Of a stretch of DNA of 64,000 nt, positions 35,906 through 62,978 are shown piece after piece. This DNA comes from Microbispora amethystogenes (GTDB lineage: Bacteria; Actinomycetota; Actinomycetes; Streptosporangiales; Streptosporangiaceae), in assembly GCF_016863015.1 (NCBI RefSeq), contig NZ_BOOB01000008.1, positions 1-64,000 on the forward strand. Reading direction: 5' to 3'. A program made the translations under genes and the position numbers. Every line of letters begins with the position of its first letter. Position 1 is the first letter of the stretch. A model generated the notes under the pieces. It saw only the letters and a list, made by a program, of their open reading frames with translations. It was not told the DNA's origin and did no database searches.

Positions 35906-36613
35906 TCAGGCGGGCAGCACCGCGCGCAGGCGCTCGTCGCGCAGCGCCTGGTACCAGCCGTCGTCGATCGCGGGCAGCGGCCCGGTCACCCAGCCCAGCA
36001 GCAGGTCGGCCAGCGCGGGGTTGCGGGCGAGCGCCGGGCCGTGCAGGTAGGTGCCGATGATCCGGCCCGCGTAGCAGCCCTCGGTGCCGTCGCCGTTACC
36101 GGTGCCGACGACCGTCCGGGACAGCGGGCGCACCCCCGGACCCAGCCTGGTCACGCCCATGTGGTTCTCGAACCCGGTCAGCGTGGGCAGCCCCAGCGCG
36201 GGGTCGACATCGGCGGCCAGTTCGCCGACCGCGCGCCGCTCGCCCCGCCCCGAGCTGATGTCGAGCAGGCCGACGCCGGACACCGGCTGGCCCTCCTCGC
36301 CGCCGAACACCGTGCCCATGATCTGGTAGCCGGCGCAGACCGCCAGCAGGGCCGCGCCCCGCTGGATCGCGGCGTGCAGGCCGCCGTCGCGGCGCAGCCG
36401 CTCGGCGCCGAGGATCTGCGGCCGGTCCTCGCCGCCGCCGATCAGGTAGACGTCGCCCTGCTGCGGCACGGGGTCGGAGGAGCGCACGTGGATGGTCCGG
36501 GTGGGGATCCCCCTGGCCCGGGCCCGCTGCTCCAGCACCAGGACGTTCCCCTGGTCCCCGTACGTGCTGAGCAGGTCGGGATAGATCCAGACGATGGACA
36601 ATTCAGACGGCAC
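35906..36613 (-). CDS. gatD: Lipid II isoglutaminyl synthase, glutamine amidotransferase subunit
   Basis: A 235-residue CobB/CobQ-like glutamine amidotransferase. The nucleophile Cys is in LLAVCAGYQIMG and the catalytic His in IIGTYLHGPAL. With MurT it amidates the alpha-carboxyl of D-Glu in the lipid II stem peptide, needed for efficient cross-linking. The GTG at 36613 overlaps the murT end by 11 bases, so the subunits are translationally coupled. Confidence 0.94.
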   Translation of the reverse strand: MPSELSIVWIYPDLLSTYGDQGNVLVLEQRARARGIPTRTIHVRSSDPVPQQGDVYLIGGGEDRPQILGAERLRRDGGLHAAIQRGAALLAVCAGYQIMGTVFGGEEGQPVSGVGLLDISSGRGERRAVGELAADVDPALGLPTLTGFENHMGVTRLGPGVRPLSRTVVGTGNGDGTEGCYAGRIIGTYLHGPALARNPALADLLLGWVTGPLPAIDDGWYQALRDERLRAVLPA

Positions 36614-37877
36614 GGCCGAACTCCGCTCGGATCTGCTGGAACGCGGTGTAGTTGGCGATCACGTCGATCTTGCCGGGGGCGAGGACTGCCACCGCCTGCT
36701 CGAACGAGTCGCAGAGCTGGAAGGGCACCTCCGCGACGGCGAGCCGCAGCGCGAGGTCGAGCCGGCGCTCGCCGGTGACCAGCACCGGCCGCCCCCGCAG
36801 GATGCGGTAGTCGACGTCCCACAGCCAGGAGGTGTCGCGGCCGTCCGGCCCCTGCGCGTTCACCGACAGGATGATCGGCAGCGCCGGGTCGGCGACGTCG
36901 AACGCCTCCAGCCAGCCGGCCGGGTTCTTGGCCAGCAGCAGCCGCAGCGACCTGCCCTCCCGCTCGACGGTGGTGTAGCGGCCCGCGACCGAGGTGACCG
37001 TACGCAGCCGGGGCAGCGCCCGGCCGGGGTCGAGGCCCAGCGTCTCGGCGACCGCCAGCGCGACGGCGGCGTTCGCCCGGTTCGCCTGGCCGGGAAGCTG
37101 GAGGTCCAGCCGCCAGCGCTGCCCGCGGGGGTCGATCACGTCCTCGCCGTCGAGCACCCAGTTGGGCTCGGGACGGTGGAAGGTGCACTCGCGGCAGGCC
37201 CAGCTGGTGTCGGCGAGCTGGGCGGCGGTCAGATTCTGCCCGCCGTTGCCGAACCCGGCCCGGTCGAGCGGGCCGCCGCACTCGGGGCAGCACCAGGAGT
37301 CCTCCCGCCAGCGCTGCCCGGCCGCCACCCACGTCACCCGGGCGGCCGTGGAGGCGCCCCAGGTGACCAGCGGGTCGTCGCAGTTGGCGATCACGTGGGC
37401 GGGCCGGCCCGCGAGCGCGCGGCGCCACTTCTGGGCCAGCAGCCAGATCTCGGCCGCCCGGTCCATCTGGTCGCGGCTCAGGTTCATCAGGGCGACGATC
37501 CCGGCCTCGGTGGTGTCCAGCACCTCGGGGAGGTACTTCTCGTCCACCTCCAGCACGCCGTACGGCGCGCCCTTGCTGGAGGCGAGCGCCGACACGTGCC
37601 CGGCGGGCATGTTGGCGCCGAACGCGTTCGTCGCCACGTCGCCGAGCTCCTGCAGCGCCGAGGTGATGAGACGGGTCGTCGTGGTCTTGCCGTTCGTCGC
37701 GCTGACCAGGACGAGCTTGCGGTCGGCCGCGAGCTTGCGCAGCAGGTCGGGCTCCAGCATCAGGCCCACCCTGCCGCCGATCACCGAGCCGTCGCCGCGC
37801 CCGGTGGCCCTGGACAGCGTCGCGGCCGTACGGCCCAGAGCACTGGCGAGCTGGGCCCGCAACGGAAGCTGACTCAT
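36603..37877 (-). CDS. murT: Lipid II isoglutaminyl synthase, MurT subunit
   Basis: A 424-residue Mur-ligase-like ATPase with P-loop SATNGKTTTTRLI, the central ligase domain, an inserted Cys4 zinc ribbon (CCPECGGPLD and WACRECTFHRPE) and the C-terminal DUF1727 domain. It activates lipid II for amidation with ammonia from GatD. TAGGAT six bases before the ATG suggests a leaderless transcript. It lies just downstream of the HerA-like gene on the same strand, 28 bases away. Confidence 0.95.
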   Translation of the reverse strand: MSQLPLRAQLASALGRTAATLSRATGRGDGSVIGGRVGLMLEPDLLRKLAADRKLVLVSATNGKTTTTRLITSALQELGDVATNAFGANMPAGHVSALASSKGAPYGVLEVDEKYLPEVLDTTEAGIVALMNLSRDQMDRAAEIWLLAQKWRRALAGRPAHVIANCDDPLVTWGASTAARVTWVAAGQRWREDSWCCPECGGPLDRAGFGNGGQNLTAAQLADTSWACRECTFHRPEPNWVLDGEDVIDPRGQRWRLDLQLPGQANRANAAVALAVAETLGLDPGRALPRLRTVTSVAGRYTTVEREGRSLRLLLAKNPAGWLEAFDVADPALPIILSVNAQGPDGRDTSWLWDVDYRILRGRPVLVTGERRLDLALRLAVAEVPFQLCDSFEQAVAVLAPGKIDVIANYTAFQQIRAEFGRAV

Positions 37878-37905: not shown

Positions 37906-40900
37906 TCACGATCCGAAGGACAGCTCGGCGGGGGTGTCGCCGTCGAAGGGCAGCACGAACCGGCGGGGCCAGGACAGGACGGTCTCCAGCCAGCCCGCGC
38001 TCATCGTCTGGGCGACGTACTTGACCCGCTCGCGGGGCTCGACGCCGATGGCGACCGTCGTCACGTCACGCTGGATGCCCTCGTGCTCGTCGTCGCCGAG
38101 GATGACCCGCCAGGCGAGCGCACGGTTGCGGTCCACCTCCATCGACAGCGGGTGGTGGCGCAGCGCCTTGGCCCGGTGGCCCAGCAGCTCCGTGCGCACG
38201 CCGACCGCCACCGCGCCCTCGGCCGGCTCGGCGCCGTTGACCCCCTGGTGGGGGTACGGCCGCCCGGAGGGGTCGGTGCCGAACAGCGGATACTCCATCG
38301 CCGGAGCCGGACTGCGCAGGTTGGGCGCGGGATGCCCGAACGGGAACAACCGGTCCACCTCGTGCAGCCAGCGGACCTGCGGAATGACCCAGGCCGCGCC
38401 CGGCCGCTCGCCGGCGCGCATCGGCGGCTCGCCCTCCGCGCCGTCCGCCTGACCGGCCGCGAGCAGCCCGGCCGCGACCTCGGCGGCCTTCTCGGTGAGC
38501 AGCGCGGGGTCGAACCAGGTGCGCAGCGACCAGGCCCGGCGCGACACCGACCGCTCGACCAGCGTGGCCAGCAGGCACTCGCGCCGCTTGACCGGCAGCT
38601 CCGCCCAGATGTCGGCGAGCACGCGCGGCACGCCCGGCAGCGACCGGTTCGTCACGAACGCCAGGACGGCCGTGTCGGTCCAGATGCGCAGCCAGGCCCA
38701 CTCGGGGGCCACCGCGAGCAGGTCGGCCTCGCGCAACTCCACCAGCGTGCAGGCCTTGCCCGTACGGCACTCGCGCCCGCAGGCGGCCGAGCGGCGGCCG
38801 CAGATCGGCGGGACCGGGCCGAGCGTCTCGCGCTCGCGGTCCTCCCCCAGCGGCACCTGCACGCGCAGCGGGCGGTCCATGCCGTCGGCGAACACCGCGG
38901 CGAAGCCCGGCTGGAGCGACACGACCTGACGCGACTGGTCCTCGCTCAGGTTCATCGCCGCGCCGACCAGCGCGCGGTCGTCCTCGGCCGGGAGCCGGTG
39001 CACGACCTTGAGCGCGGTGTTCTTCACCACGTCGGAGACGAGCTTGGTCGGGATCTGCTCGGCCACGACGATGCCCTCGCCGTACGCCCTGATCTCGGCG
39101 AGCATCCCGGCCAGCAGTTCGACGGCGTGGGTGGAGGCCCGCTGGGAACCCCGGTCGCGCAGCAGCCGGTGGGCCTCCTCGATCACGATGACGTGCCGCA
39201 GGCCGCCGACGCCGTCCTCGGCCCGGGGTTCGGAGCGCGGTTCGGAGCGGGCCCGCATCCGCAGGTGCTCGACGATCCGGATGATCAGCGTGCCCATGAG
39301 GAACGCCTTGTCCTCGTCGTTGGCGACGTCCTCGATCGCGAGCACCACGTTGCGCTGGAGCAGGCCGCCGATGTCGGCCGGGTGGCCGCCCTCGAAGAAC
39401 CGGCCCGCGCTGCCGACACGCAGGCTGCGCAGGCGCAGGCTGATGAAGCCCTCGACGTCGGCCTGGACCTCGTTGCCGTAGCCGATCTCCTGGATGACCT
39501 CCAGCGCGTGCTGCTGAAGCTGCTCCAGCGTCGGCACGGCCGGCTGCACGGCGGCCCCCGGGATGCCGCCGCCGGTCACCACGTCCCAGCCGTTGGCCTC
39601 GTAGACGCGCTGCAGCGCCAGCGACATGATCTGCGGGAACGGCTCCTCGGCGTCGAAGGCCGCCTGGAACAGCGCCCTGACCATGTCGATGTGCGCCTGC
39701 ACGGGATAGCCGGGCTCGGGCGCGAGCGGGTTGACGCTGATCGGCACGTTGTCCGGCGCCGAGGGGTTGATGACGGTCAGCGGGGCCAGGTGCTCGACCC
39801 GGCCGGCCATCGCGGCGTATTCCGACTTGGCCGGTTCGATGGCCAGCCAGGGGATGCCCGCGATCGTGAGCTGCTCCAGCAGGTGCCGTACGGTCTGGGA
39901 CTTGCCGGAGCCGGTGGCGCCGGTGACGAAGGCGTGGCGGTTCAGCGTCGCGAGCGGCACGCGGAACGCGCCGACGGCGCGGTCCTGCCCGTCGACGATC
40001 GCGCCGAGGTCGATCGACTCCGCCGAGCCCTCCACGTCGGCCTCGCTCGTCACGTCGAAGAAGCCGGCGTCGAGCACCCGGACCCCCGGCACCTCCCGGC
40101 GCGGCAGCCCGGCGAGCGCGGCGAGGGCCCCCGCCGTCGCCGCGAACGGCGCCGCCGCGCCGTCGGCCGAGTCCTGCAGGTCGACGGCGAGCGCCTCGGC
40201 GAAGCCGTACACCGACTCGCTCGCGCCGTCCCCCGACAGGGCGGGCAGCGTCATGGCGCTGCGCAGCCGGTAGGGGTGATGGCTCATCTCCACCGAGCCG
40301 ACCAGCACCGGCGCGATCTGGCGCAGTTCGTCCGGGCCCGCCGCGCCGGCCAGCACCCGTACGTTCCACAGACCGGCCTCGCGGAACGCGTCCAGCTCCT
40401 GCATCCGGCGCTCGGCCCGCTCGGCGTCGAACCGCGACCGCTCGGAGGCGTCGCCGTACTGCCGCAGCACGTTGAGCTGGGTGCGCAGGTGGGCCACCTC
40501 GGCGTCGAGCAGGTCGGTCGGCTCGGCGACGACCACCCAGGCGAACGGCCGGGACATGAGCGTGACCAGCGTCGACTCGAAGAGCGTGGGCCGCTTGGGC
40601 TCGTCCGGCTCCGGCTCGCGCCTGCCGTAGAGCGGCGGGGCCTGGCGGCCGGGGCACGGCGTCCAGACCAGGTCGGCGAGATCGGCCAGCCACTCGTCGC
40701 CGATCTCCACACCCCGCGCGCCGCCGGGGAACAGCAGCGGCTGCGGGCCGGTGACCGGCGGCTCCGGGGCCGAGGCCGCCCGGCGCGGCGGCTTGGGCGG
40801 CGTGAGCGGTCCCGCGTTGGTGATCAGCTCCAGCGGGGCACCCGACCCACGCGACAGCCAGCCGATGACGAACGGCCGGTTGCGCTGCGCGGCGGACAGG

Positions 40901-41007
40901 ACCGCGGGGAGCACCGTGACGAAGTCCCACTCCGCGGACGAAGTGCGCGAGGGAGCGGTGATCGCCTGGATCCGGTACCACGGCCCGCTCAGAGGGAACG
41001 GATGCAA
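37906..41007 (-). CDS. HerA/FtsK-superfamily ATPase, DUF853-like
   Basis: The 1033-residue protein has an N-terminal region without clear homology (1-300), then a HerA-type P-loop ATPase: Walker A GATGSGKSQ at about 363-371, Walker B VIVIEEAHRLL at about 606-616, and a sensor-like ADDRALVGAAMNLSEDQ. A Cys cluster (C736, C743, C747, C753) looks like a zinc site. HerA/VirB4/FtsK relatives pump DNA or protein through hexameric rings. TTG 41007 is the start, with GAGGGG five bases upstream. Downstream of, and probably co-transcribed with, the 645-residue membrane protein gene. Confidence 0.8.
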   Translation of the reverse strand: MHPFPLSGPWYRIQAITAPSRTSSAEWDFVTVLPAVLSAAQRNRPFVIGWLSRGSGAPLELITNAGPLTPPKPPRRAASAPEPPVTGPQPLLFPGGARGVEIGDEWLADLADLVWTPCPGRQAPPLYGRREPEPDEPKRPTLFESTLVTLMSRPFAWVVVAEPTDLLDAEVAHLRTQLNVLRQYGDASERSRFDAERAERRMQELDAFREAGLWNVRVLAGAAGPDELRQIAPVLVGSVEMSHHPYRLRSAMTLPALSGDGASESVYGFAEALAVDLQDSADGAAAPFAATAGALAALAGLPRREVPGVRVLDAGFFDVTSEADVEGSAESIDLGAIVDGQDRAVGAFRVPLATLNRHAFVTGATGSGKSQTVRHLLEQLTIAGIPWLAIEPAKSEYAAMAGRVEHLAPLTVINPSAPDNVPISVNPLAPEPGYPVQAHIDMVRALFQAAFDAEEPFPQIMSLALQRVYEANGWDVVTGGGIPGAAVQPAVPTLEQLQQHALEVIQEIGYGNEVQADVEGFISLRLRSLRVGSAGRFFEGGHPADIGGLLQRNVVLAIEDVANDEDKAFLMGTLIIRIVEHLRMRARSEPRSEPRAEDGVGGLRHVIVIEEAHRLLRDRGSQRASTHAVELLAGMLAEIRAYGEGIVVAEQIPTKLVSDVVKNTALKVVHRLPAEDDRALVGAAMNLSEDQSRQVVSLQPGFAAVFADGMDRPLRVQVPLGEDRERETLGPVPPICGRRSAACGRECRTGKACTLVELREADLLAVAPEWAWLRIWTDTAVLAFVTNRSLPGVPRVLADIWAELPVKRRECLLATLVERSVSRRAWSLRTWFDPALLTEKAAEVAAGLLAAGQADGAEGEPPMRAGERPGAAWVIPQVRWLHEVDRLFPFGHPAPNLRSPAPAMEYPLFGTDPSGRPYPHQGVNGAEPAEGAVAVGVRTELLGHRAKALRHHPLSMEVDRNRALAWRVILGDDEHEGIQRDVTTVAIGVEPRERVKYVAQTMSAGWLETVLSWPRRFVLPFDGDTPAELSFGS

Positions 41008-41104
41008 TGAGACCCCTCAGTCGACGACGAACAGGGAAGAGACTCCTTCAACGATCAGTCCCGCACACCGTGGTTGACGATGCCCTTACCGGCCGCGGAC
41101 CGTG

Positions 41105-43042
41105 TCATGGCCGCTTGCGCCAGTCGAGGCGGGGCGGCGGGGGGCCGAGGTTCGGGGGGACCTCGGGCAGCGTGGGCTCGGCGGGCTCCGGCTCCGGCTC
41201 GGGCTCGGGTTCGCGCGGCGTCAGGGCGGCCCGGCGGATCTCCTCGAACTCCCCCAGCGTCGTCTTCGGGAAGGTGAGTATCGCCGGGTTCGCGTCCGCC
41301 AGGCGCACCTGGCGTCCCTCCGCCGTCGAGTAGGTGACGATCACCGACGTCGTGGGAAGCTGTTGGAGCTGGTGCGGCTCGACCAGGAACTCCCGCGACC
41401 GCTGCAGCACCCCGTCGGCCACCGTGGGTGCGCGCCGGCCCCACTCGGTCGACTCCGTGATGTCCTCGCGCAGGTCGCCCTCCCGCATGTCCTCCCCCTC
41501 CGTACGGCCCTCGCCGACGGTGGAGGTGTAGAACCCGCTCGGGGCGTGGACCGCCGTGCTGAACGTCTCGGTGAGCTGGGCGAGTTCGAGGCGGTGTTCG
41601 GTGCCGACGTGCTCGCTGGCCACCCGGGCGTCCTCGGCGTTGCCCAGCCGCATGAACGCGACGGCCGCGTGCCCCCGGCCGAGCCGTTCACGTACGGTCG
41701 GGGTGAGGCTGCGGTAGGTGAGGACGAGCCCGGTGCGCGAGGTCTCGCAGGCGTCCATCAGCCGGTCGAGCACGTCGCCGCGGAGCTTGTCCGCGCCCGC
41801 GACGATGATCGTGTGGTACCAGGGCCGCTCGCTGGCCGGCGACTGGCGCAGGATGTGCGTGAGCGCGGTCGCGACGTACGTGCCGAGCACCCGGTTGCCG
41901 AACACGCCCGCCTGCCGGTCCATGCTGACCACCCGCAACCGCGCGGGCGGCAGCCGTACGGCCTCGGAGCCCAGCGTCTCCAGCTTGCGCAGCTGGGACT
42001 CCAGCGCCCAGGCCCGCTCGATGACCACCCGGTCGGCCACGCCCCGGCCGAACAGCGTGCCGATGCGTTCGAGCTGGGAGGCGGTCAGCAGGCCGTACTT
42101 CATGTCGTCGCGCGGGTCGCCCACCTGCGCGAGCGCCCGCAGCGCGGCGGTCACCTGGCTGATCGTGGCGTTCTCGCCGAGGACCTCCAGCACGCGCTCC
42201 AGGATCGCGTTGTCGAAGCCGATGTCCCTGCTGGTCTCCTCGCTGACGCTCACCACGTGGGCGAGCACGTCGGCGAACGCCTCGGGCTTGAGCGTCGCCC
42301 CCAGGTCGAGCTTGGGCAGGTCGACCGGGAGCACCCAGACGAGCGGGTCGTCCCCGCCCCGGCGGGCCAGCTCGATGAGGTCCTTGGCGATCGCGCCCTC
42401 GGACAGGTCGAGCACGGTGAGGTGGCCGCCACTGTAGAGGCGGGTCGCGCCGATCAGCGTGACCAGGGCCGACCAGCCGGCCAGCGTGCCGCCGGCCACG
42501 TCGACCCGGTCGATGTCGTCCGGCACCGCCACGGCGTACCAGGTGATCTGCTTGTCGAAGCGGTTCTTCTTCTCGGCCCAGTCGCGGTACTTCGCGGCGT
42601 GCTCCTCCTGGGCGGTGACGATCTCCCGCTGCCGCCGCTCCTGCTCCCGCAGCGCCTTACGGCGGCGCTCGTCGAGCCGCTCGTTGACCGTACGGTCGCC
42701 CTGCCGGATGGCGTAGGTGCAGATGGCGGCCACGCCGCCCGCGGCGACCAGCCCGAGCAGCACGAACGACCAGGTGAGCAGGCCGCTCACGCCGAGGACG
42801 AGGATCCCGGTGGCCAGCACGGCCATGAACGTGCGGAACAGCCGGACCGGATGGTTCAGCAGGTCCTTCTGCAGGCGCTCCCGGTGAACCCAGTCGGTGG
42901 TGTCGGCGGGAGGCTCGGCGACGTCCTCGCGCGCCGGCCGCTTCGGCGGCGGCCCCGGATCGGGGTACAGCAGAGCGTACTGCCAGCCCAGGTAGATCCG
43001 GTCCGCCTGCAACTGGGCATGCTCGGGGTGCGGGTCGCCCAC
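41105..43042 (-). CDS. Membrane protein resembling a VirD4/TraG-type ATPase without P-loop
   Basis: A 645-residue protein with two membrane helices (about 71-87 and 89-110), a charged coiled coil (115-165), then a RecA-like layout: the P-loop position reads AGGTLAGWSA with no Lys, later WYHTIIVAGADKL at the Walker B position lacks acidic DE, and TGLVLTYRSLT and AAVAFMRLGNAEDA follow as in coupling proteins. The tail is a Glu-Pro repeat and proline-rich. I infer a catalytically dead coupling-protein-like component. GTG 43042 has GGAGGG upstream. Paired with the HerA-like ATPase 97 bases downstream. Confidence 0.6.
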   Translation of the reverse strand: MGDPHPEHAQLQADRIYLGWQYALLYPDPGPPPKRPAREDVAEPPADTTDWVHRERLQKDLLNHPVRLFRTFMAVLATGILVLGVSGLLTWSFVLLGLVAAGGVAAICTYAIRQGDRTVNERLDERRRKALREQERRQREIVTAQEEHAAKYRDWAEKKNRFDKQITWYAVAVPDDIDRVDVAGGTLAGWSALVTLIGATRLYSGGHLTVLDLSEGAIAKDLIELARRGGDDPLVWVLPVDLPKLDLGATLKPEAFADVLAHVVSVSEETSRDIGFDNAILERVLEVLGENATISQVTAALRALAQVGDPRDDMKYGLLTASQLERIGTLFGRGVADRVVIERAWALESQLRKLETLGSEAVRLPPARLRVVSMDRQAGVFGNRVLGTYVATALTHILRQSPASERPWYHTIIVAGADKLRGDVLDRLMDACETSRTGLVLTYRSLTPTVRERLGRGHAAVAFMRLGNAEDARVASEHVGTEHRLELAQLTETFSTAVHAPSGFYTSTVGEGRTEGEDMREGDLREDITESTEWGRRAPTVADGVLQRSREFLVEPHQLQQLPTTSVIVTYSTAEGRQVRLADANPAILTFPKTTLGEFEEIRRAALTPREPEPEPEPEPAEPTLPEVPPNLGPPPPRLDWRKRP

Positions 43043-43188
43043 GGGCCCTCCATGTCCGCCTAAGGTCACAGCGTAGGATCTGGAAGCCCTGTCAGGGCGA
43101 GCTTCTCGCCATTCGGACCTATTTCCCGCCGGCGCCTGGAACCTATGGGGCCCATGGGGCGATTGTGATCGTACTACCATCGCTTGCC

Positions 43189-43848
43189 ATGACGTCATCC
43201 CCCAATGGCGGCGGCCGACGACGCCCGGTGCTGGTCCCGGTCGCCTCCGCGCTGGCCGTGGTGGGCATCGGCGTCACCGCCGCCTTCGGCGGCCTGCGCG
43301 ACGCACCGGACAAGCCTCCGCCCACGGCCTCGCCCGGCGACACGATCGACCAGGGGCAGTTCCGCACCCAGTTCATCAAGGCGATCGACACCACGGAGAA
43401 GGGCAGCTTCGGCGACGCCAAGCGCTATCTGGAGCTCGTCGTCAAGGTCACCAACATGGGCGACGAGACCGCCTCGGTCGGCATGGTGCCGCAGCCCGGG
43501 AAGGGCTTCAGCCAGACCGGCACCTTCGCCGGCTCGCTGCTGCGGACCCGCCCCGAGATGAAGAGCGAGTACGGCCCGCGGGCCTCGGTGCTGAGCTACG
43601 GGATCGAGAGCCAGCAGCTTCATCCGGGGATCACCACCACGGTCGTGGTGAAGTACGAGCTCCAGCCCACCGCGACCGCGCCCGAGGAGATCAGCCTCGA
43701 CCTGGGTTCGTTCGAGTACCGGGCGCTGGGCGGCCGCGACCAGACCCGCAGCTGGATGCTCAAGGGCGAAGGCGGGGACAAAGACGGCCCGTTCGAGCCC
43801 GAGGTCGCCACGCGGATCACCCTTCCGGTGCGGAAGGAGAGCAGCTGA
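43189..43848 (+). CDS. Membrane-anchored extracytoplasmic protein, component A
   Basis: A 219-residue protein with one N-terminal membrane anchor (about 12-33) and a beta-rich outer domain (YLELVVKVTNMGDETASVGM, TTTVVVKYELQPTA) with the pattern of DUF4352/Ig-like domains. It is the first of three plus-strand genes linked by overlaps (one base, then four), divergent from the VirD4-like gene over 146 bp. No family name recognised. TACCAT eight bases before the ATG may be a leaderless promoter. Confidence 0.65.
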   Translation: MTSSPNGGGRRRPVLVPVASALAVVGIGVTAAFGGLRDAPDKPPPTASPGDTIDQGQFRTQFIKAIDTTEKGSFGDAKRYLELVVKVTNMGDETASVGMVPQPGKGFSQTGTFAGSLLRTRPEMKSEYGPRASVLSYGIESQQLHPGITTTVVVKYELQPTATAPEEISLDLGSFEYRALGGRDQTRSWMLKGEGGDKDGPFEPEVATRITLPVRKESS

Positions 43849-44525
43849 TGGCATTGGTACAGGCAGAGAGCCGTACGTCCCGCCGGGCCCCCGCCGGCCG
43901 GCCTCGCAGGCGCGGGCTGGGCAGGCGTCTCGCCGCCGGGGTGGCGGGCATCGTGCTCGCGGCGGCGGCCGTCTACGCGCAGCAGAACTTCGCGATGTCC
44001 TTCGAGCAGCGCACCTCGTTCCTGACCTACAAGGGCCGGATCGGTGAAACGGTGGCGACCAAGCGCTTCTCCGTGAAGGTCGTGTCGGTCACCGCCGCCC
44101 GCGCCGTGGACACGGCGGACTACTCCGGCAAGGTGACCAAGGTGGGGACGAGCCATCTGTTCCTGCTGATCGACGTCACCGCGACCAGCGCCCGTGAGCC
44201 CATGAAGCTGAGCAAGTACAGTCCGCCCCTCCTCCTCACCCGGGATGGCCGGCGTTACCTGCCCACCGACAAGGTCGACGAGAGCCTGACCCTGTTCAAC
44301 CGGTACATCCAGCCGGGATTCTGGACGAGCGGACCGCTCGTCTTCGAGGTGCCCAAGGACGCGGTGCCGGGCGCGAGCCTCGTCTTCATCCCGCCCGTCA
44401 GCCCGCTGGTCGTCGACAACTTCGCGCCCGAGGCGCAGGTCGACCTGGATCTGTCCGGCGCCGCCGCCGACCGGCTGATCGCGCAGGCGGAGGACTACCA
44501 CACACTGGCGGGCCCGAGCCGATGA
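43848..44525 (+). CDS. Membrane-anchored extracytoplasmic protein, component B
   Basis: A 225-residue protein with a short basic cytoplasmic tail, a membrane helix (about 26-46) and an outer domain whose strands (FSVKVVSVTAARAV, LFLLIDVTATSARE, LVFEVPKDAVPGASLVFI) fit DUF4352-like immunoglobulin folds. Its ATG overlaps the upstream stop by one base and its stop overlaps the next start by four (ATGA), so the three are one translational unit. Function unknown. Confidence 0.65.
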   Translation: MALVQAESRTSRRAPAGRPRRRGLGRRLAAGVAGIVLAAAAVYAQQNFAMSFEQRTSFLTYKGRIGETVATKRFSVKVVSVTAARAVDTADYSGKVTKVGTSHLFLLIDVTATSAREPMKLSKYSPPLLLTRDGRRYLPTDKVDESLTLFNRYIQPGFWTSGPLVFEVPKDAVPGASLVFIPPVSPLVVDNFAPEAQVDLDLSGAAADRLIAQAEDYHTLAGPSR

Positions 44526-45544
44526 CCGAGACGCCCATGGACGGAAATCCGCCGAGGAACGACCAGGACGCCCGCGACTGGTTCGCGCCCCCGGCCGACC
44601 AGCCCACCGACATCGCCTCGGACATCACCTACAGCGGCGCGTTGCCGCCGCGGCCCATGCCGACGGCGCCGCCGTCCATCCCGATCCCCGGGAAGCTGGC
44701 CCCGCCGACGGACCTGCGCGTGTGGCCGCCTCCGGAGCCCGAGGGCGAGGACAGGTCCACCCAGCCGTTCCCCGCGCTGCGGACGAACCGGCAGCCGCCG
44801 CCCCGGGCGCTCGTGCCCACGGCCCCTCCCTCCGCGGTGCCTCCCCCCACAGCGCCTCCCCTCGCCGCCCCTCCGGACCCCTCCGCCGTGATGCCGCTCG
44901 GTGCCCCGGCGTACGGCGTGCCGGCGGAAGCGCCCGGCGTGGACCTCGCCGTGGCCACGGACGCGCCCGCTTCGCCCGCACGGCGGCGGACGGGCCTGCT
45001 GATCGGCGGCGCGGTGCTGTCCGTCGCGCTCACCGTCGCGGCCCCCTCGGTCTTCGGCTACCGGGCCTTCGAGTACGGCCGTCCGGACTACACCGTCCAC
45101 GTCGTGCCGCCCGGCCAGGCCGGGACCGTGCAGCACGTGTCATGGCAGGCCACCGTCGAGAAGATCAAGGACCCCAGCGGCAAGCCGGACCGGTCCGACC
45201 GGCAGTGGATGAAGATCGTGGCCACCAGGACCGCGCTCGACGCCGAGGGCGCCATCCGCCACGGAGCGCCGGCGGATGTCAAGCTCACCGACCGGGCCGG
45301 GCGCACCTGGCAGGTGGAGACGCTGAACAACGAGACGCCGCCCGACGTCAATGACAACAAGGTCGGCACGCCGTACCGGATGGAGATGCTGGGGGTGGTC
45401 CCGCCCTCGGTGGCCGACCAGGTCGAGGTCACCATCCGCCCGAGCACCTACCGGGACGTGCCCGGGCAGTCGGCGGCGGACTTCGTCAAGGACGCCTTCA
45501 GCTCGACGGAGAAGGACGACCAGGTTCTGCGCTTCCGGCGGTGA
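44522..45544 (+). CDS. Membrane-anchored protein with proline-rich cytoplasmic arm, component C
   Basis: The 340-residue protein has a 150-residue Pro/Ala-rich, disordered N-terminal arm, one membrane helix (about 156-178) and a beta-rich outer domain of about 150 residues (VQHVSWQATVEKIKDPSG, QVEVTIRPSTYRDVPG). The arm could recruit the cytoplasmic ATPases encoded divergently. Its 3' end overlaps the convergent polytopic gene by 47 bases. Confidence 0.65.
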   Translation: MTETPMDGNPPRNDQDARDWFAPPADQPTDIASDITYSGALPPRPMPTAPPSIPIPGKLAPPTDLRVWPPPEPEGEDRSTQPFPALRTNRQPPPRALVPTAPPSAVPPPTAPPLAAPPDPSAVMPLGAPAYGVPAEAPGVDLAVATDAPASPARRRTGLLIGGAVLSVALTVAAPSVFGYRAFEYGRPDYTVHVVPPGQAGTVQHVSWQATVEKIKDPSGKPDRSDRQWMKIVATRTALDAEGAIRHGAPADVKLTDRAGRTWQVETLNNETPPDVNDNKVGTPYRMEMLGVVPPSVADQVEVTIRPSTYRDVPGQSAADFVKDAFSSTEKDDQVLRFRR

Positions 45545-46841
45545 CCGGCTCCCGGCCCTCCGCTCTACCCTCCGTCCGGGCCCGGGTCGCGGCGAGGTCG
45601 AACGTGGCGGCGATCAGGCACATGGTCACCAGGGTCACGACCAGATCCGTCACGTAACCGACCGGCTCACCGGTCGCGAACCAGAGGTATGGCTCCTCAC
45701 TCGCGGTGAGATAACGGCCCGCCCTCCCGAGGAAGTCACCGCCGATGTGCAGGCCGACGTAACACAGCGCGAAGAGGCCGAACAGCGGCGCGCCTCCACG
45801 GGCCGTCAGGCGCAGGGAGTTCAGCAGCGGGATCCAGCGGCCCGTCCACCCGGCGCTCAGCTTGGCCAGCGCCCGCCTCGTCCAGTCGTGCGTGCGCTCC
45901 AGGTGCACCGCCGCCTGCTCCAGGCGCGTCCCTCTGATCGTCGTCTGGGTGTCCTCCGCGTACGCGCCGTACACGAGGATGCCGACCGTCAGCCACGCGA
46001 GCGGGACGGCCAGGGCCTCGATCACGTACGGCCAGACCTCCCCCAGCCACTCCGAGACCTGCTGCCACCCGGGGATGCCCCCCTCCGCTCCGGCCACGAG
46101 GTCGTGCCAGGCGGCGACGGCGGACCGGCCGCCGATCCAGTCGGAGCGCGCCCCCACGACGGCGCCGACCGCGTTGATGCCGTAGAAGGCGAACGCCAGC
46201 TCGCCGAAGGTGGCGAGCACGCCGGAGAACCGGCCGTTCCCCGCCTCGTGGCGGCGGCCGAAGTACCACTTCACCCCGTAGGCGACCACCATCGTCGCGA
46301 GGGAGACCTTCGGGTCCAGGTTCATCAGCCCGGCCATCACCCCGCTCTTGTCGCCGCTGCCGCCGTCGAGCACGAGGCGGTCCGGCTGCCGCATCATGTC
46401 GATGTTCATGAAGTCGTGGGCGTCCTCCTTGACGAACCCCCAGGTGGTGTAGATGCCGGCGAAGACGAGCGCGGTCCGGTTGAGGGCGCCCAGCAGGCTC
46501 TCCTTGGCCTCACCGCCGGCACGCCGTGCCCGGGTCTCCAGCAGCGCCTCGCGGACGACGTACAGCATGCCGACGGTCGTGGCGAGAGACGTCATCACGA
46601 CGAGCGTGAACAGGAACATCACCAGGACCAGCCGGGCCTGGTACCACGAGCCGTGCGAGACGGTCGCGGCCAGCAGGAGCAGGCCCCACCGGACGAGCCG
46701 TCCGAGCGAGAACCAGATGATCAGCGGGAGCGCGCACTTCGCGAGGATCCGCAGGGCGTGCAGCGGCAACGCGTACGGCGACAGCATCCAGGCGAACCTG
46801 CGGGGGGCGGGCAGTGCGGACGTTCCGGACACCTGCCGCAT
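45498..46841 (-). CDS. Polytopic membrane protein, component D
   Basis: A 447-residue protein with about nine hydrophobic helices (near 25-55, 65-95, 115-135, 170-190, 205-225, 260-290, 340-365 and 385-410). A polar charged loop RGTRLEQAAVHLERTHDW lies between the sixth and seventh. No family recognised. GGGAG lies nine bases before the ATG. It converges on the three-gene unit with a 47-base coding overlap. It could be the membrane channel or scaffold of the same machine, an inference from position only. Confidence 0.6.
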   Translation of the reverse strand: MRQVSGTSALPAPRRFAWMLSPYALPLHALRILAKCALPLIIWFSLGRLVRWGLLLLAATVSHGSWYQARLVLVMFLFTLVVMTSLATTVGMLYVVREALLETRARRAGGEAKESLLGALNRTALVFAGIYTTWGFVKEDAHDFMNIDMMRQPDRLVLDGGSGDKSGVMAGLMNLDPKVSLATMVVAYGVKWYFGRRHEAGNGRFSGVLATFGELAFAFYGINAVGAVVGARSDWIGGRSAVAAWHDLVAGAEGGIPGWQQVSEWLGEVWPYVIEALAVPLAWLTVGILVYGAYAEDTQTTIRGTRLEQAAVHLERTHDWTRRALAKLSAGWTGRWIPLLNSLRLTARGGAPLFGLFALCYVGLHIGGDFLGRAGRYLTASEEPYLWFATGEPVGYVTDLVVTLVTMCLIAATFDLAATRARTEGRAEGREPVTAGSAEPGRPSPSS

Positions 46842-47757: not shown

Positions 47758-48060
47758 TCAGACGGCGACCGAGAGCTGGGCGACCTCGCCGAGCTTGGCC
47801 TCGACGGCGACGTCCTTGGTGACGCCGCCGCCGGCGATGATGCGGACGGTCCACTGGCCGGGAGCGGCGAAGAAGCGGAAGACGCCCTCGTCGGAGACGA
47901 CGACCTCGCCGGTGAACTCGCCGCTGTGGTCCAGCAGGCGGGCGTACGCCGTGCCGGCGCCGGTGACGACGCCCTGGATCACGGCCTGGTTGGACAGGTC
48001 GATGCCGGCCGGCAGCGCGACGGTCTGCTCAGGAGCAGCGCAACCCTGTGTGGTGGTCAT
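47758..48060 (-). CDS. DUF1416 domain-containing protein
   Basis: A 100-residue beta-sandwich protein (QAVIQGVVTGAGTAYARLLD, GVFRFFAAPGQWTVRI) with two N-terminal Cys-free Thr-rich residues and one Cys at GCAAPEQ. DUF1416 proteins follow the thiosulfate sulfurtransferase in actinobacteria; a role in sulfur transfer is assumed from context. The start overlaps the sulfurtransferase stop by one base (TGATG). Confidence 0.9.
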   Translation of the reverse strand: MTTTQGCAAPEQTVALPAGIDLSNQAVIQGVVTGAGTAYARLLDHSGEFTGEVVVSDEGVFRFFAAPGQWTVRIIAGGGVTKDVAVEAKLGEVAQLSVAV

Positions 48061-48899
48061 CAGCGGGCCTCTCCCAACTCGATCGGCACGCCCACGAGCG
48101 AGCCGTACTCGGTCCACGATCCGTCGTAGTTCTTGACGTTGGGCTGGTCGAGCAGCTCGTGCAGCACGAACCAGGTGTGCGCGGAGCGCTCGCCGATGCG
48201 GCAGTAGGCGATGGTGTCCTTGGCGAGGTCCACGCCGGCGCCGGAGTAGAGCTCGCGGAGCTCGTCGTCGGAGCGGAAGGTGCCGTCGTCGTTGGCCGCC
48301 TTCGACCACGGGATGTTGCGGGCGGTCGGCACGTGGCCGCCGCGCTGCGCCTGCTCCTGCGGCAGGTGGGCCGGGGCGAGCAGCTTGCCGGTGAACTCGT
48401 CGGGCGAGCGCACGTCGACCAGGTTCTGCTTGCCGATCGCGGCGACGACGTCGTCGCGGAAGGCGCGGATGTCGTTGTCCGGCTCCTGCGCGGTGTACTG
48501 GGTGGCGGGACGCTCGACCGCGTCCTTGACCAGCTCGCGGGACTCCAGCTCCCACTTCTTGCGCCCGCCGTCGAGCAGCTTGACGTTCGCGTGGCCGTAC
48601 ACCTTGAAGTACCAGTAGGCGTAGGAGGCGAACCAGTTGTTGTTGCCACCGTAGAGGATCACGGTGTCGTCGTTGGCGATGCCGCGGGACGAGAGCAGCG
48701 CCTCGAAGCCGGCCTTGTCGACGAAGTCGCGGCGGACCGGGTCCTGCAGGTCGGTCCTCCAGTCGATCCTCACGGCGCCGCGGATGTGGCCCTTGTCGTA
48801 GGCGCTGGTGTCCTCGTCGACCTCGACGAGCACGACACCCGGTGTGTCGAGGTTGGCCTCGACCCAGTCGGCGTCCACCAGAACGGCGGAGCGGCTCAT
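48060..48899 (-). CDS. Thiosulfate/3-mercaptopyruvate sulfurtransferase
   Basis: A 279-residue two-domain rhodanese. The second domain carries the catalytic Cys in AYCRIGERSAHTWF; the first (HIRGAVRIDWRTDLQD, LYGGNNNWFASYAYWYF) is inactive as usual. It transfers sulfane sulfur from thiosulfate or mercaptopyruvate. Its ATG lies in the 3' end of the decayed DUF4395 gene. A Cys-rich leader peptide about 320 bases upstream suggests attenuation by cysteine supply. Confidence 0.95.
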   Translation of the reverse strand: MSRSAVLVDADWVEANLDTPGVVLVEVDEDTSAYDKGHIRGAVRIDWRTDLQDPVRRDFVDKAGFEALLSSRGIANDDTVILYGGNNNWFASYAYWYFKVYGHANVKLLDGGRKKWELESRELVKDAVERPATQYTAQEPDNDIRAFRDDVVAAIGKQNLVDVRSPDEFTGKLLAPAHLPQEQAQRGGHVPTARNIPWSKAANDDGTFRSDDELRELYSGAGVDLAKDTIAYCRIGERSAHTWFVLHELLDQPNVKNYDGSWTEYGSLVGVPIELGEAR

Positions 48900-58818: not shown

Positions 58819-58889
58819 GCGGGTGTAGTTCAATGGCAGAACATCAGCTTCCCAAGCTGACAGCGCGGGTTCGATTCCCGTCACCCGCT
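58819..58889 (+). tRNA. tRNA-Gly, anticodon CCC
   Basis: A full cloverleaf: acceptor GCGGGTG/CACCCGC, D arm GTTC/GAAC, anticodon stem TCAGC/GCTGA with loop TTCCCAA (anticodon CCC, decoding GGG), and T arm GCGGG/CCCGT around TTCGATT. CCA is not encoded. Its 3' end lies 105 bases from an integrase gene, so the T arm and acceptor end are the likely attachment core. Confidence 0.95.
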
Positions 58890-58898
58890 CTCAGTGCG

Positions 58899-58993: not shown

Positions 58994-60325
58994 TCAGCTC
59001 ACCGGAGCCAGCAGCCCGGCCGGGCCGTCGTCCTCGTCGTCATCGCGTCCGATGATCTGCCGGTCGATGGCGTCCGTGATCGTCTTGTCGGCACCCCGTA
59101 CGGCGTGCTGGTAGATCATCGCCGCTCGGACGTTGTCGTGACCCATCCGGGCCATGAGGTCCTTGAGCCCCGCGCCCGACTCGGCGGCGAGCATGTTTCC
59201 AGTGTGACGCAGATCATGGAAGTGAAGGCCAGGGAGACCCATCTCCTTGACCACGTCCACCCAGCGCGTACGGGTGTTGAAGCCGCTACGCCGCAACGGG
59301 CCGCCTTTGGCACCGGGGAAGAGGAGCGCGCCCGGATCGTCCTGCACGTAGGTCGCCAGGTGCTCACGCAGGGCCGGAGCGATGCCTTGGGGGATGCCGA
59401 CCACACGCCGACCCGCCTTGGACTTGGGCGCCCCGAGAACCAGTTCACCCGTGGAGCGCTCGACGAAGGCCGCCCGAACGCGCACGGTCCCGGCGTCCAG
59501 GTCGAGGTCACTGCGGCGAAGGGCGCTCACCTCACCCCATCGCAGGCTCGCGAAGGTGGCGAGCAGGACCAGGGCGCGGAAACGCCTGTCCTGGGTGCAG
59601 TCGGCCCGCCCGTCCATCCCCATCGCCCAGAGCGTTCGTTCGGCCTCTGGGCGAGTCGTGAAGGCCTCGGGAAGGGTGCGCATCTCCCCGTGCCGCTGGA
59701 AGCGCAGCCGATAGGCGTTGCCCGTGAGCTTGCGGACGTTGCCGACAGGACGACGGCCGACCCGGTCCGCCAGGTCGAAGACCTGAGCCACAGTGAGGAC
59801 CGGACGCTCTTGCGCGTGCTCGTCGCCGGCCCCGCGGATTCGGCACGGGTTGCGCGGGATGATGTGGTCCTCTTGGGCCGCCGTCATCAGCACGGCCCGC
59901 AGCAGCCGGTATGCCTTGGCTGCCATGGACACCGAGACGCCGTTGCCGAGCAGGTCGGATCGCCACTGCCGAATCATCGCCGTCGAGAGCTTGCCGAGCT
60001 GGACCCCGCCGAGGTGCGGCGTGATGTGCTTCTTGAGCAGCCAGCTATAGAGATCGACAGTGCGGGGACGCAGGCCAGGGCGCTGGGAGATCCAGCTCTC
60101 GGCGTAGTCGCGGAGCTTGGCCTTGCCACGATCGGGGTCGGTCCACTCCCCCTTGATGATCTGAGCTTCGACAAGGGACAGCGCCCGCTCGGCGTCACTC
60201 TTGCGTTCATAGGTCTCGGCCCCGGAGCGCATCTGTCCGTCGGGGCCGGGATAGCGGATCTGGTAACGCCCGGAGGGAAGCTTCCGGATGTTGCCGAAAC
60301 GGCGGTGACCGTCCTTGTTGGCCAT
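58994..60325 (-). CDS. int: Tyrosine recombinase/integrase with duplicated arm-binding domain
   Basis: A 443-residue tyrosine integrase. Residues 9-50 form an AP2-like arm-binding domain (GNIRKLPSGRYQIRY), 70-165 the SAM-like core-binding domain, and 250-415 the catalytic domain with R262 (ASLRWGE), H370/R373 (HDLRHTG), a His in MGHDN and nucleophile Y405 (MIYQHAV). A second arm-like segment (191-235, GNVRKLTGNAYRLRF) is inserted before the catalytic core. It should integrate the element into the tRNA-Gly gene. One-base overlap with xis. Confidence 0.92.
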   Translation of the reverse strand: MANKDGHRRFGNIRKLPSGRYQIRYPGPDGQMRSGAETYERKSDAERALSLVEAQIIKGEWTDPDRGKAKLRDYAESWISQRPGLRPRTVDLYSWLLKKHITPHLGGVQLGKLSTAMIRQWRSDLLGNGVSVSMAAKAYRLLRAVLMTAAQEDHIIPRNPCRIRGAGDEHAQERPVLTVAQVFDLADRVGRRPVGNVRKLTGNAYRLRFQRHGEMRTLPEAFTTRPEAERTLWAMGMDGRADCTQDRRFRALVLLATFASLRWGEVSALRRSDLDLDAGTVRVRAAFVERSTGELVLGAPKSKAGRRVVGIPQGIAPALREHLATYVQDDPGALLFPGAKGGPLRRSGFNTRTRWVDVVKEMGLPGLHFHDLRHTGNMLAAESGAGLKDLMARMGHDNVRAAMIYQHAVRGADKTITDAIDRQIIGRDDDEDDGPAGLLAPVS

Positions 60326-60531
60326 CAGGCCGCCCTTCCGGTGACGTCATGGGCCGACAGGGGCGCGACCGTGCCCGCGACGACGAATGCGGTCAGTGCG
60401 GACTCGGAGATGCGGACGTGGCGACCGACCTTCACGAACTCGATGCGCCGTTCGGCCACCAGGCGGCGGACGAAGCGAACCGAGGTGTTCAGGTGGGCCG
60501 CCGCTTGCGGCACAGTGAGCAGTTGATCCAA
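60325..60531 (-). CDS. xis: Excisionase, MerR-type helix-turn-helix
   Basis: A 68-residue DNA-binding protein (LTVPQAAAHLNTSVRFVRRL, IEFVKVGRHVRISESALTAF) of the excisionase family. It overlaps the int start by one base (TGATG), so the two are coupled; it should steer the integrase toward excision. Confidence 0.9.
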   Translation of the reverse strand: MDQLLTVPQAAAHLNTSVRFVRRLVAERRIEFVKVGRHVRISESALTAFVVAGTVAPLSAHDVTGRAA

Positions 60532-60544
60532 GGTGTTCCTCCCT

Positions 60545-62104
60545 TCACGCGGCGGACTGAGTTGCCGAAAGATCTCGGCCCTCTGCTTGGGCCTGGAGTT
60601 GGTTCATGTGGTTGCGCCAGCGCTGGCGTTCGTGAACCGACCGCAGGAGACGCACGCCGATCGGGGCGAGTTCGGGATCACCGGGCTTGACCGGCTTCCA
60701 GAGGTAGCGGTGGGGATCAACCGGCTCGTCTTCGACGCCGAGGGCTTCCAGGACCCAGGTGCGGCGGTCCTGCTTGTGCTCGGTCAGGGTCTTGTTCGAC
60801 CATTTCCGCGAGACGAGGACGCGGCGGCCCGCGTAGCCGAGGTGGTCGGGCTTGTGTGCCTTGCCCTTGCACCGGCCCGGAGCCATCCCCGCTTTGGCGC
60901 CCTTGGGCTGCACCCCGTACCGCAGCCAGTTCGGGCAGGTCGGCGAGCACGGCTCGAACCGCAGCGCGTCGAGGAGCCGTTCGGCGTGAGCCTTCCGGCG
61001 TGGGTCGTCGGTGCCGAGGGCGTCGCCGAGGCTCTTGGTCAGGTACTTCGACAGGTACCCGATGAGTTGGTCGGCATCCGGGGTCCCGGCGAGGACGCCT
61101 TTGATGTCGAGCTGGTCGCCGAAGCGCAGCACGTGCAGGGGTTCGGCGTCCTCGTCGGCGTCGAGGGCGTCGAGGGCCTGTTCCCAGGTTGGCAGGACTT
61201 CCCCCGTGGTCGGGTCGAGGTAGCCGGCCCCGTCCTCCCACACCGGCAACGTGGCCGCGATGATCTGCCGTAGTTCCGCACGCGGCAGGGTGCCGCGGAT
61301 CGCCATGTGCAGGTGCGGTGCGAGCCGCTTCTGTGGTTCGACGGTGGCGAAGTACTGCACGTCGTACCCGGCGACCCGGCGGAGGTTCTGCACGAAGCGG
61401 TCGACGAGCTTGGAGAAGTGCAGTGCGTCGCGGGCTGCCCGCGTGTAGTCGTAGGCGTCCGGGTCGAGGGGTGCGCCCTCCAGTACTCGCCCGTACGACG
61501 GCAGCGTGAGGGTGACAAACATTGAGGGCCGGTAGGTCTTGCCGTCCGAGCCGGTGAAGGTCCGCCCGAGGGTGGTCTTGGTCATCTGCCGCTTCGGCAG
61601 GTCCGGGGCATCCTGCCGCCGCTTCGTTGACCGCGTGCGCTTGCCGGAGGTGCGGCCGAGGACGTTGCCGCGCATGCCCGCAGCGTTGATCTCCTCGTCC
61701 AGGTCCTCGATCGCGGCGTCCAGGTCGGTGGTGTCGCCGCCGGCCTTTTCGACCTCATCTCGCCAGGCTTGGACGTCGGCCCGCAGCTCCACGAGGTGAC
61801 GCTGATAGTCATCGGCGTTGTCGGGCAGGTTGATCGGTTCGTGGTCGAGGTGCCAGCCCTCCCGGCACTGCGCCCGCCGGAGTTGCCGGTTGCGCTTGGC
61901 ACACGGAGGGCACTTGCTTTCCAAGGTGGCGCCGCAGGGGACGTCGATGACCTCAACCTGTCCGGTGAGGATGTCCTGCCGCCGGAGAGGGACGGGCCGG
62001 ATGCAGACGCCGTACTGCTTGGCGATCTCTTCCACGACCTCACGGGCCAGCGGTTGTGCCATCCGGACGGCGCGGGGTGTGGAGCGGTCGTGCGCGTTGG
62101 TCAC
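60545..62104 (-). CDS. RepSA-type replication initiator
   Basis: A 519-residue rolling-circle initiator: an N-terminal Cys cluster (CPPCAKRNRQLRRAQC), the strand motif PSMFVTLTLPSYG, the HUH metal motif RLAPHLHMAIRG, the catalytic Tyr motif IGYLSKYLTKSL, and a Cys-rich C-terminal part. It would replicate the excised circle. GTG 62104 overlaps the zinc-ribbon gene by four bases. Confidence 0.88.
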   Translation of the reverse strand: MTNAHDRSTPRAVRMAQPLAREVVEEIAKQYGVCIRPVPLRRQDILTGQVEVIDVPCGATLESKCPPCAKRNRQLRRAQCREGWHLDHEPINLPDNADDYQRHLVELRADVQAWRDEVEKAGGDTTDLDAAIEDLDEEINAAGMRGNVLGRTSGKRTRSTKRRQDAPDLPKRQMTKTTLGRTFTGSDGKTYRPSMFVTLTLPSYGRVLEGAPLDPDAYDYTRAARDALHFSKLVDRFVQNLRRVAGYDVQYFATVEPQKRLAPHLHMAIRGTLPRAELRQIIAATLPVWEDGAGYLDPTTGEVLPTWEQALDALDADEDAEPLHVLRFGDQLDIKGVLAGTPDADQLIGYLSKYLTKSLGDALGTDDPRRKAHAERLLDALRFEPCSPTCPNWLRYGVQPKGAKAGMAPGRCKGKAHKPDHLGYAGRRVLVSRKWSNKTLTEHKQDRRTWVLEALGVEDEPVDPHRYLWKPVKPGDPELAPIGVRLLRSVHERQRWRNHMNQLQAQAEGRDLSATQSAA

Positions 62105-62292
62105 CGGTCACCGTCCCAGGAGCCGACGGGGTCGAGGAGGTCGGCCGGGCCGAGGCCATCGACCATCACCGAGGCCTTTTCGCCGCATTCGTGGCATTCG
62201 ACGATGCCGCGCACGGGGTCGAGCCAGAGCACATCGAGGGCGCCGCAGCCCGAGCAGCGCAGTCCGTCGAGGATGTGGGCCAGGCGCATCAT
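62101..62292 (-). CDS. Small zinc-ribbon protein of the element
   Basis: A 63-residue protein with CSGCG and CHECG pairs, a simple Cys4 zinc ribbon. Small proteins like this sit between tra and rep in many AICEs; the role is unknown. It overlaps both neighbours by four bases. Confidence 0.75.
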   Translation of the reverse strand: MMRLAHILDGLRCSGCGALDVLWLDPVRGIVECHECGEKASVMVDGLGPADLLDPVGSWDGDR

Positions 62293-62978
62293 CGGCCCTC
62301 CCCCGCGTACTCGGCGACCATCGCCCGGATATCCGTGTCAGAGACGTAGGCCGCACGCACCCGCACCGGATCAGGACTGGATTCGAGACGGACGTAGCCG
62401 ACGCCCGCGCCCAGCTCCGGGAGCGGTGAGATGTGGTCGGCCAGTGCGCCCCGGTCGCGGGCGCCGTCGCCGAGGACCATGTCCACCTGTTCGCTCTCGT
62501 CCAGCCGGAGGGCGATCTTGTCGGGGAACAGGTTGCGGATGTTCATGACCTCTTTGCGCGGGTCCTGAAGCGCGGCCATGACCCCGACGCCGACCGCGCG
62601 CCCTTGGGTGGTGAGCGTGGCCAGGGCCGCCGTGATCCGCTGGCGAAGTTGCTTGTCGGGCTGGTAGGCGGTCAGGAACGCCACCTCGTCGACGGGCACC
62701 AACACGAACGGGTCCGCCACGGTCGGCGTGTGGGAGCGCTGGAGGCCGGCGAACCGGTCGGCCCGCGCCTGCATCACGCACACGGCCTCATCGAGCAGAT
62801 CGGCGCACTCCTTCGGATCGGCCGCGTATCTCGCGCCGAACAGCGCTCGGCCGAAGGACAGTTCCATCCGCTTGGGGTCCAGCGCCCACACCTGCACCAG
62901 GCCCGCCCGCATCGCCGGGAGGAGCCCGCGGATTGTTGACCACAGGTAGGAGCCCTTACCGGCTCCGGTCGCTCCAGA
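62289..62978 (-). pseudogene. FtsK/SpoIIIE-type DNA translocase TraSA, N-terminally truncated
   Basis: About 230 residues from Walker A SGATGAGKGS through Walker B FVLVPVDEVAFL to the C-terminal arginine-finger region (MNIRNLFPDKIALRLDE) match AICE Tra proteins. Upstream of S-G-A-T the homology stops and the membrane and N-terminal part of a normal Tra are missing; a short frame continues to 63,026 through unrelated sequence. The element is probably unable to transfer by itself. Confidence 0.7.

Follow-up and report, generated by a model that had tools for sequence, protein, structure and literature searches.

A motor ATPase and a lysine-less membrane pseudo-ATPase of Microbispora amethystogenes as a possible protein-export pair of actinobacteria

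In type IV secretion, VirB4 and a coupling protein act together with VirB3, VirB6 and VirB8, which serve as the membrane translocon (PMC12102498). Here we analyzed a stretch of 64,000 nucleotides from Microbispora amethystogenes (contig NZ_BOOB01000008.1, positions 1 to 64,000; hereafter the window), in which two adjacent genes on the reverse strand, T and H, encode a membrane-anchored pseudo-ATPase and a motor ATPase and lie next to four further genes, A, B, C and M. An original prediction, made from the DNA letters, had assigned all six genes to one complex. Our preferred reading concerns T and H, which may form a type-IV-like export ATPase pair with the motor H acting on the dead receptor T, moving toxins in some lineages; we hold this tentatively, at slightly less than an even chance.

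The pseudo-ATPase T, the motor H and their pairing

The T gene (41105-43042, reverse strand) encodes 645 residues with two hydrophobic segments, starting at residues 68 and 87 by hydropathy, and a P-loop that reads AGGTLAGWSA, just as had been described from the DNA. Trp190 occupies the position of the Walker lysine, and the loss extends across the family: among 63 distinct T sequences this position is Trp in 57, Arg in five, Ala in one and Lys in none. The Walker-B-like strand of T ends in AGAD. No match of note was obtained for T in Pfam, PADLOC or NCBIfam, a search of the T profile against PDB returned nothing significant, and the Pfam matches obtained with 43 T sequences were weak and did not agree with one another; matches of T to DUF6232 (E 0.07) and to a response-regulator family (E 0.11) were treated as chance. 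Because of these null and inconsistent results, the fold assignment rests on the AlphaFold model, which is of TrwB/VirB4/DndH type, with a RecA-type fold and a helical insertion, and for which VirD4/TrwB came first in Foldseek. The proposed layout of a VirD4/TraG coupling protein stands for the N-terminal transmembrane segments and the predicted RecA-type fold; it fails at the missing Walker lysine, and the structural fit is shared with VirB4 and DndH-C. Two loci from other genomes carry a further VirD4/TrwB-like ATPase gene directly before T, one (L024:7207-8973) with the P-loop GAADSGKT and a TrwB_AAD_bind match over the cut-off, the other (L027:10400-12520) with the P-loop GMSRTGVST and no Pfam match.

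The H gene (37906-41007, reverse strand) encodes a motor ATPase of 1033 residues whose ATPase domain, at about residues 320-725, is of HerA/VirB4/DndH type. Its description as a HerA-type ATPase with intact Walker motifs proved correct: HerA families rank first in Pfam, the matches to HerA_C and DUF87 exceed the Pfam cut-offs, and G363, G366, G368, K369, S370 and E610/E611 are invariant across 44 aligned H sequences. The TTG start at 41007 agrees with homologues that have GPWYRI near their start. Neither the N-terminal nor the C-terminal region of H gave a significant PDB match by sequence. The C-terminal region (residues 738-1033, window 37906-38796) is helical, and its conserved Cys 743, 747 and 753 suggest a metal site.

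To place the pair among bacteria, one genome per species was scanned with a pattern in 84,980 species, which gave 347 confirmed H-like places. The best 80 of these were fetched, a sample biased to the Streptomyces branch, where the query started. Among these best 80 of 347, H was called in 78 and T in 62, and in 60 loci T lies at most three called genes away from H; the T-H loci include Streptomyces, Actinomadura, Actinoallomurus, Microlunatus, Micromonosporaceae, Pseudonocardiales and Catenulispora. The pairing of T with H is ancient. Its H is patchy in Streptomyces (11 of 199 genomes at E 1e-60, five of them at only 37-40% identity), and the Streptomyces search added few new loci, L177 and L178 being repeats of L064 and L066. 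Among the loci collected, L062 and L063, L040 and L119, and L037 and L099 are identical. A phylum-wide profile search for T, with four candidates scored per genome, found matches in at least six of 296 genomes at E 1e-10. Phage records yielded two partial H matches, and the annotation of the pair in three plasmid records goes no further than "hypothetical protein" and "ATP-binding protein".

In a midpoint-rooted FastTree phylogeny of 99 T sequences, the branch of the window's family (29) is split from the rest (70) with support of 1.0 and 0.99, and the window branch contains a single clade made up of the 13 T sequences whose stretches have no H. Directly after H in the window, across a 28-bp gap, lies a MurT-like gene (36603-37877, reverse strand), followed by a gatD-like gene (35906-36601); both names are our presumption. 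In loci L029-L035 and L044-L049, T stands beside murT with H absent from the stretch, and the motif MRLGNxEDA is altered (MRQP...) in most rows shown, with GG...GWSA kept.

Toxin genes after H and the export reading

In several relatives a toxin or immunity domain is encoded by one of the two genes that follow H: ADPrib_exo_Tox (L062/L063, one locus), the calpain-type Peptidase_C2 (L058, L067, L071), RHS repeats (L133), Zeta_toxin (L141) and the immunity family Imm49 (L131, L132, L136). When ten effector-like proteins were scanned with Pfam, six had no match (L107, L117, L122, L125, L132, L136). For the two genes next to H on its downstream side, 139 in total, the 25 of 107 families listed include Peptidase_C2 (four genes), Imm49 (three) and DUF6406 (two), none of which is among the 25 of 165 families listed for 135 control genes, where single toxin matches are possible.

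A compositional mark of the proteins after H was defined as more than 35% proline, glutamate and aspartate (P/E/D) in the first 100 residues, a mark chosen after a first look at the data. Within L063-L142, it was reached by 16 of 74 open reading frames (ORFs) directly after H and by 1 of 366 control ORFs. This count uses plain ORFs, since several of those that follow H had escaped the gene caller; a few of the plain ORFs, flagged or long, look wrong-frame (L088, L110). A wider count of 17 of 76 versus 2 of 385 adds L179, the same protein as in L134, and L180, whose leader has a P/E/D fraction of 0.57. Of the loci L016-L062, another 19 have an H gene with enough sequence downstream, and there the mark was reached only in L057 and L062, both outside the window's family (two more loci lie at a contig end). 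In all three records inspected out of 45 plasmid records, T and H are followed by an ORF that overlaps H by 4 bp, and two of the three leaders pass the mark: those of S. clavuligerus (0.41; annotated as an ADP-ribosyltransferase) and S. antimycoticus (0.44), with Nocardia at 0.31. The S. antimycoticus and Nocardia proteins presumably contain RelA/SpoT-type and lipase-type domains, respectively. The features of polymorphic toxins, namely a constant leader, a variable toxin C-terminus and an immunity gene, occur in some relatives and were not found in the window. PF03496 was not found in the window genome, in a search to which no control responded either.

Under the export reading, T-H would be a two-protein membrane translocation ATPase, kin of the VirB4/VirD4 ATPases of type IV secretion. 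T, anchored by two predicted transmembrane helices, would serve as a membrane docking ring or substrate receptor, a role proposed because its ATPase site is without the Walker lysine throughout the family, and H, as a soluble motor and probably a hexamer, would dock on T, hydrolyse ATP and drive transport. In Streptomyces, Micromonosporaceae, Pseudonocardiales and their relatives, the substrate would most likely be the protein encoded directly after H, built from a P/E/D-rich leader as putative export signal and an exchangeable toxin domain; in some cases an immunity gene follows. In the window's close relatives, where the pair stays by murT and has no adjacent effector, another cargo would be moved.

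A more ambitious version, which we consider less likely than not, is that T-H forms the heart of a so far unrecognised machine for protein export in monoderm actinobacteria, in which a VirB4/DndH-like motor is docked on a membrane coupling protein with an ancestrally lost lysine, exports polymorphic toxins with P/E/D leaders from the next gene in several lineages, and persists as a vertically inherited exporter in the window's family. If true, this would add an actinobacterial toxin-export route in which a live motor works with a coupling protein dead by descent, and would give meaning to a pair annotated only as hypothetical and ATP-binding. Two ideas become testable: that a pseudo-ATPase can act as receptor ring for a secretion ATPase, and that the P/E/D-rich leader is an export signal.

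The neighbouring A-B-C-M module

Divergent from T and H lie A (43165-43848), B (43848-44525) and C (44522-45544) on the forward strand, and M (45498-46841, reverse strand) runs convergent with C. A overlaps B by 1 bp, B overlaps C by 4 bp, and C and M overlap by 47 bp tail to tail. All six predicted ORFs were found in place and conserved, and chance ORFs are excluded because the genes are conserved in other genera; A may start alternatively at the ATG at 43189. A site scan found no promoter-like site between the six genes, and four terminator-like sites versus 1.7 (standard deviation 1.4) in shuffled sequences. A, the first gene of the module, encodes a 227-residue extracytoplasmic protein with a single transmembrane segment. 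B encodes 225 residues, with an N-terminal hydrophobic stretch that stays under the hydropathy threshold and a DUF4352 domain (PF11611, 31.9 bits versus a cut-off of 25.9). C encodes 340 residues; its N-terminal arm is Pro-rich, and it has a single hydrophobic segment, at residue 157, and an outer domain. M encodes a polytopic membrane protein of 447 residues with four hydrophobic windows. Nothing in A, C or M rose over the Pfam cut-offs, and DUF4352 was matched by neither A nor C. Three overlapping genes for single-transmembrane proteins with DUF4352-like domains had been proposed; the overlaps and the segments in A and C are borne out, B falls below the threshold, and the databases support the domain name for B alone. 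The Pro-rich arm noted in one of them is that of C, and the convergent polytopic membrane gene is M.

Co-occurrence was surveyed in 100 genomes of the window's GTDB family, where T was found in 98, H in 76 and M in 63. Many assemblies are fragmented, so distances of T to M and to H are known only within one contig. At T identities of at least 70% (40 genomes), H is present in 40 (38 within 1 kb of T) and M in 38 (33 within 10 kb). At 47-61% (36 genomes), H is found in 34 and M in nine, one of them within 10 kb of T, and at 35-40% (22 genomes) one genome has H and 15 have M, never within 10 kb of T. Overall, 48 genomes have T, H and M, 27 have T and H, 14 have T and M, nine have T alone, one has M alone and one has H alone. 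A further 20 stretches were taken, 18 of them at M genes away from T; there B adjoins M in all 18, A was recognised in 16, and C was found by profile in five. These counts and the stand-alone copies separate T-H from A-B-C-M, and the two modules come together at a single site in the nearest relatives, of which 33 of 40 have M within 10 kb of T, versus 1 of the 58 other T-bearing genomes. A-B-C-M is thus an independent envelope module, found beside T-H only in the closest relatives. The copies in L143-L160 form a conserved module of their own, beside sseA/DUF1416-like genes in L143, L144 and L158, and other copies adjoin a gene with what we take to be a NUDIX-like box.

That all six genes build one envelope-spanning machine, with A, B and C as outer parts and M as a channel, consequently appears improbable, and the neighbouring outer proteins are better read as a separate module. 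The closeness of M to T in those 33 of 40 genomes speaks for one machine. So does the Pro-rich arm of C, together with pairs of related proteins, each with an apparent single transmembrane segment, that are found near H in L025, L026 and L028, three related genomes; in L026 and L028 one member of the pair has a long Pro-rich arm. Against it, T and H occur without M in 27 of the 100 genomes and M without H in 15, and A-B-(C)-M stands alone elsewhere; by the co-occurrence test that the prediction had set for itself, the single-machine idea fails. What had been observed in the DNA is confirmed, and the interpretation put on it is partly supported.

On the other flank, at 47758-48899 (reverse strand), are genes that we presume to be of DUF1416 type and sulfurtransferase-like. 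Elsewhere in the window, a phage-type integrase, a RepSA replication initiator (360 bits) and an FtsK match below the cut-off were found at 58994-62912 by a tRNA-Gly gene (58819-58890), a set that we take to be the pattern of an actinomycete integrative element.

Alternative explanations and comparison with known systems

Several results weigh against the export reading of T-H. The structural fit of T is tied among TrwB, VirB4 and DndH-C (VIA), H fits the DNA-restriction ATPase DndH (DndH-C) better than VirB4, and its top PADLOC match is the defence protein mad8. Seventeen of the 78 H loci have no called T gene (some ended by contig ends), and 21 of the 22 genomes with T at 35-40% identity have T without H, for which a receptor-motor model does not account. 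The window copy has no effector after H, the next ORF being murT; the commonest neighbour family is DUF1361 (14 of the 139 genes after H); 58 of 74 ORFs after H miss the P/E/D mark; none of the 24 Actinomadura loci has an ORF that reaches it; and looser marks discriminate more weakly (Pro-rich pattern, 11 of 74 versus 16 of 366; 4-bp overlap, 21 of 74 versus 69 of 366). Confidence was slightly reduced because of the tie of T with DndH-C and because only two of three plasmid leaders pass.

The main rival is that T-H is a membrane-associated antiphage or anti-plasmid system, in which H scans or pumps DNA like HerA and DndH, T is a tether, the downstream toxins are intracellular suicide effectors and the immunity-like genes are antitoxins. 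We consider it unlikely, although a serious contender: H is present in 76 of the 100 family genomes and often occupies the same site, as a variable defence island would not, T appears to be membrane-anchored, and no SIR2, DUF4297 or nuclease match was found in the other five window genes with Pfam, PADLOC and NCBIfam. Moreover, a long leader, RHS repeats and Imm49 resemble the exported polymorphic toxins of PMC3482391. A domesticated conjugation apparatus that still moves DNA between hyphae would explain the TrwB and VirB4 folds and suits a locus from a metagenome-assembled genome (L040:102-4067) with relaxase and primase genes 5-6 kb from T, possibly a mobile carrier; 16 of the 45 plasmid records with an H match are typed mobilizable and six conjugative. 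This origin is nonetheless very improbable, given that 23 of these 45 and 16 of 19 records with a T match are typed non-mobilizable and that Pfam detects no relaxase in the six window genes (apart from L040, other loci were not screened for one). Recruitment of T to a cell-wall task with MurT-GatD, with H as an optional partner, would fit the gene order at 22 of 33 T loci, where murT lies no more than three genes from T; these include all 13 of the clade without H nearby. Such synteny can come from shared descent alone, however, and 11 of the 33 loci have no murT within three genes (six at 49-56% T identity, five second copies or distant forms), so that we give this explanation little credence.

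Compared with type VII secretion (T7SS), the six window genes have no Pfam match to its markers, the EccC triple ATPase and WXG100. T and H do lie among ESX type VII genes in L022 and L028 (EccB in both; WXG100 and a subtilase in L022), and replacement of EccC by T-H was considered and rejected, as both genomes keep an EccC-like ORF (1324-1340 residues), 3 and 14 kb from EccB. Unlike HerA/DndH defence ATPases, H has a membrane pseudo-ATPase as its partner; the enzymatic partner that marks HerA antiphage operons was not found among the window genes by nuclease or SIR2 match, whereas relatives do have enzymes after H. Some relatives share with polymorphic toxin systems (PMC3482391) the P/E/D-rich leader, the exchangeable toxin domain and the Imm49 gene, but their neighbour is the T-H pair rather than parts of type VI secretion (T6SS), T7SS or PVC systems, and the window copy has no toxin. 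In the comparison of H with VirB4 (4ag5), DndH-C scores higher, and full-length VirB4 could be aligned only at a root-mean-square deviation of 14-16. T resembles the VirD4/TrwB coupling protein in its N-terminal hydrophobic segments and its predicted RecA-type fold with a helical insertion, and differs in the lost Walker lysine, the AGAD strand end and the lack of a significant sequence match. In the literature searched, we found no description of a lysine-less coupling-protein-like partner together with a DndH/VirB4-like motor and linked toxins. The two ATPases are relatives of known ones, and what would be new is this combination of lysine-less partner, motor and linked toxins.
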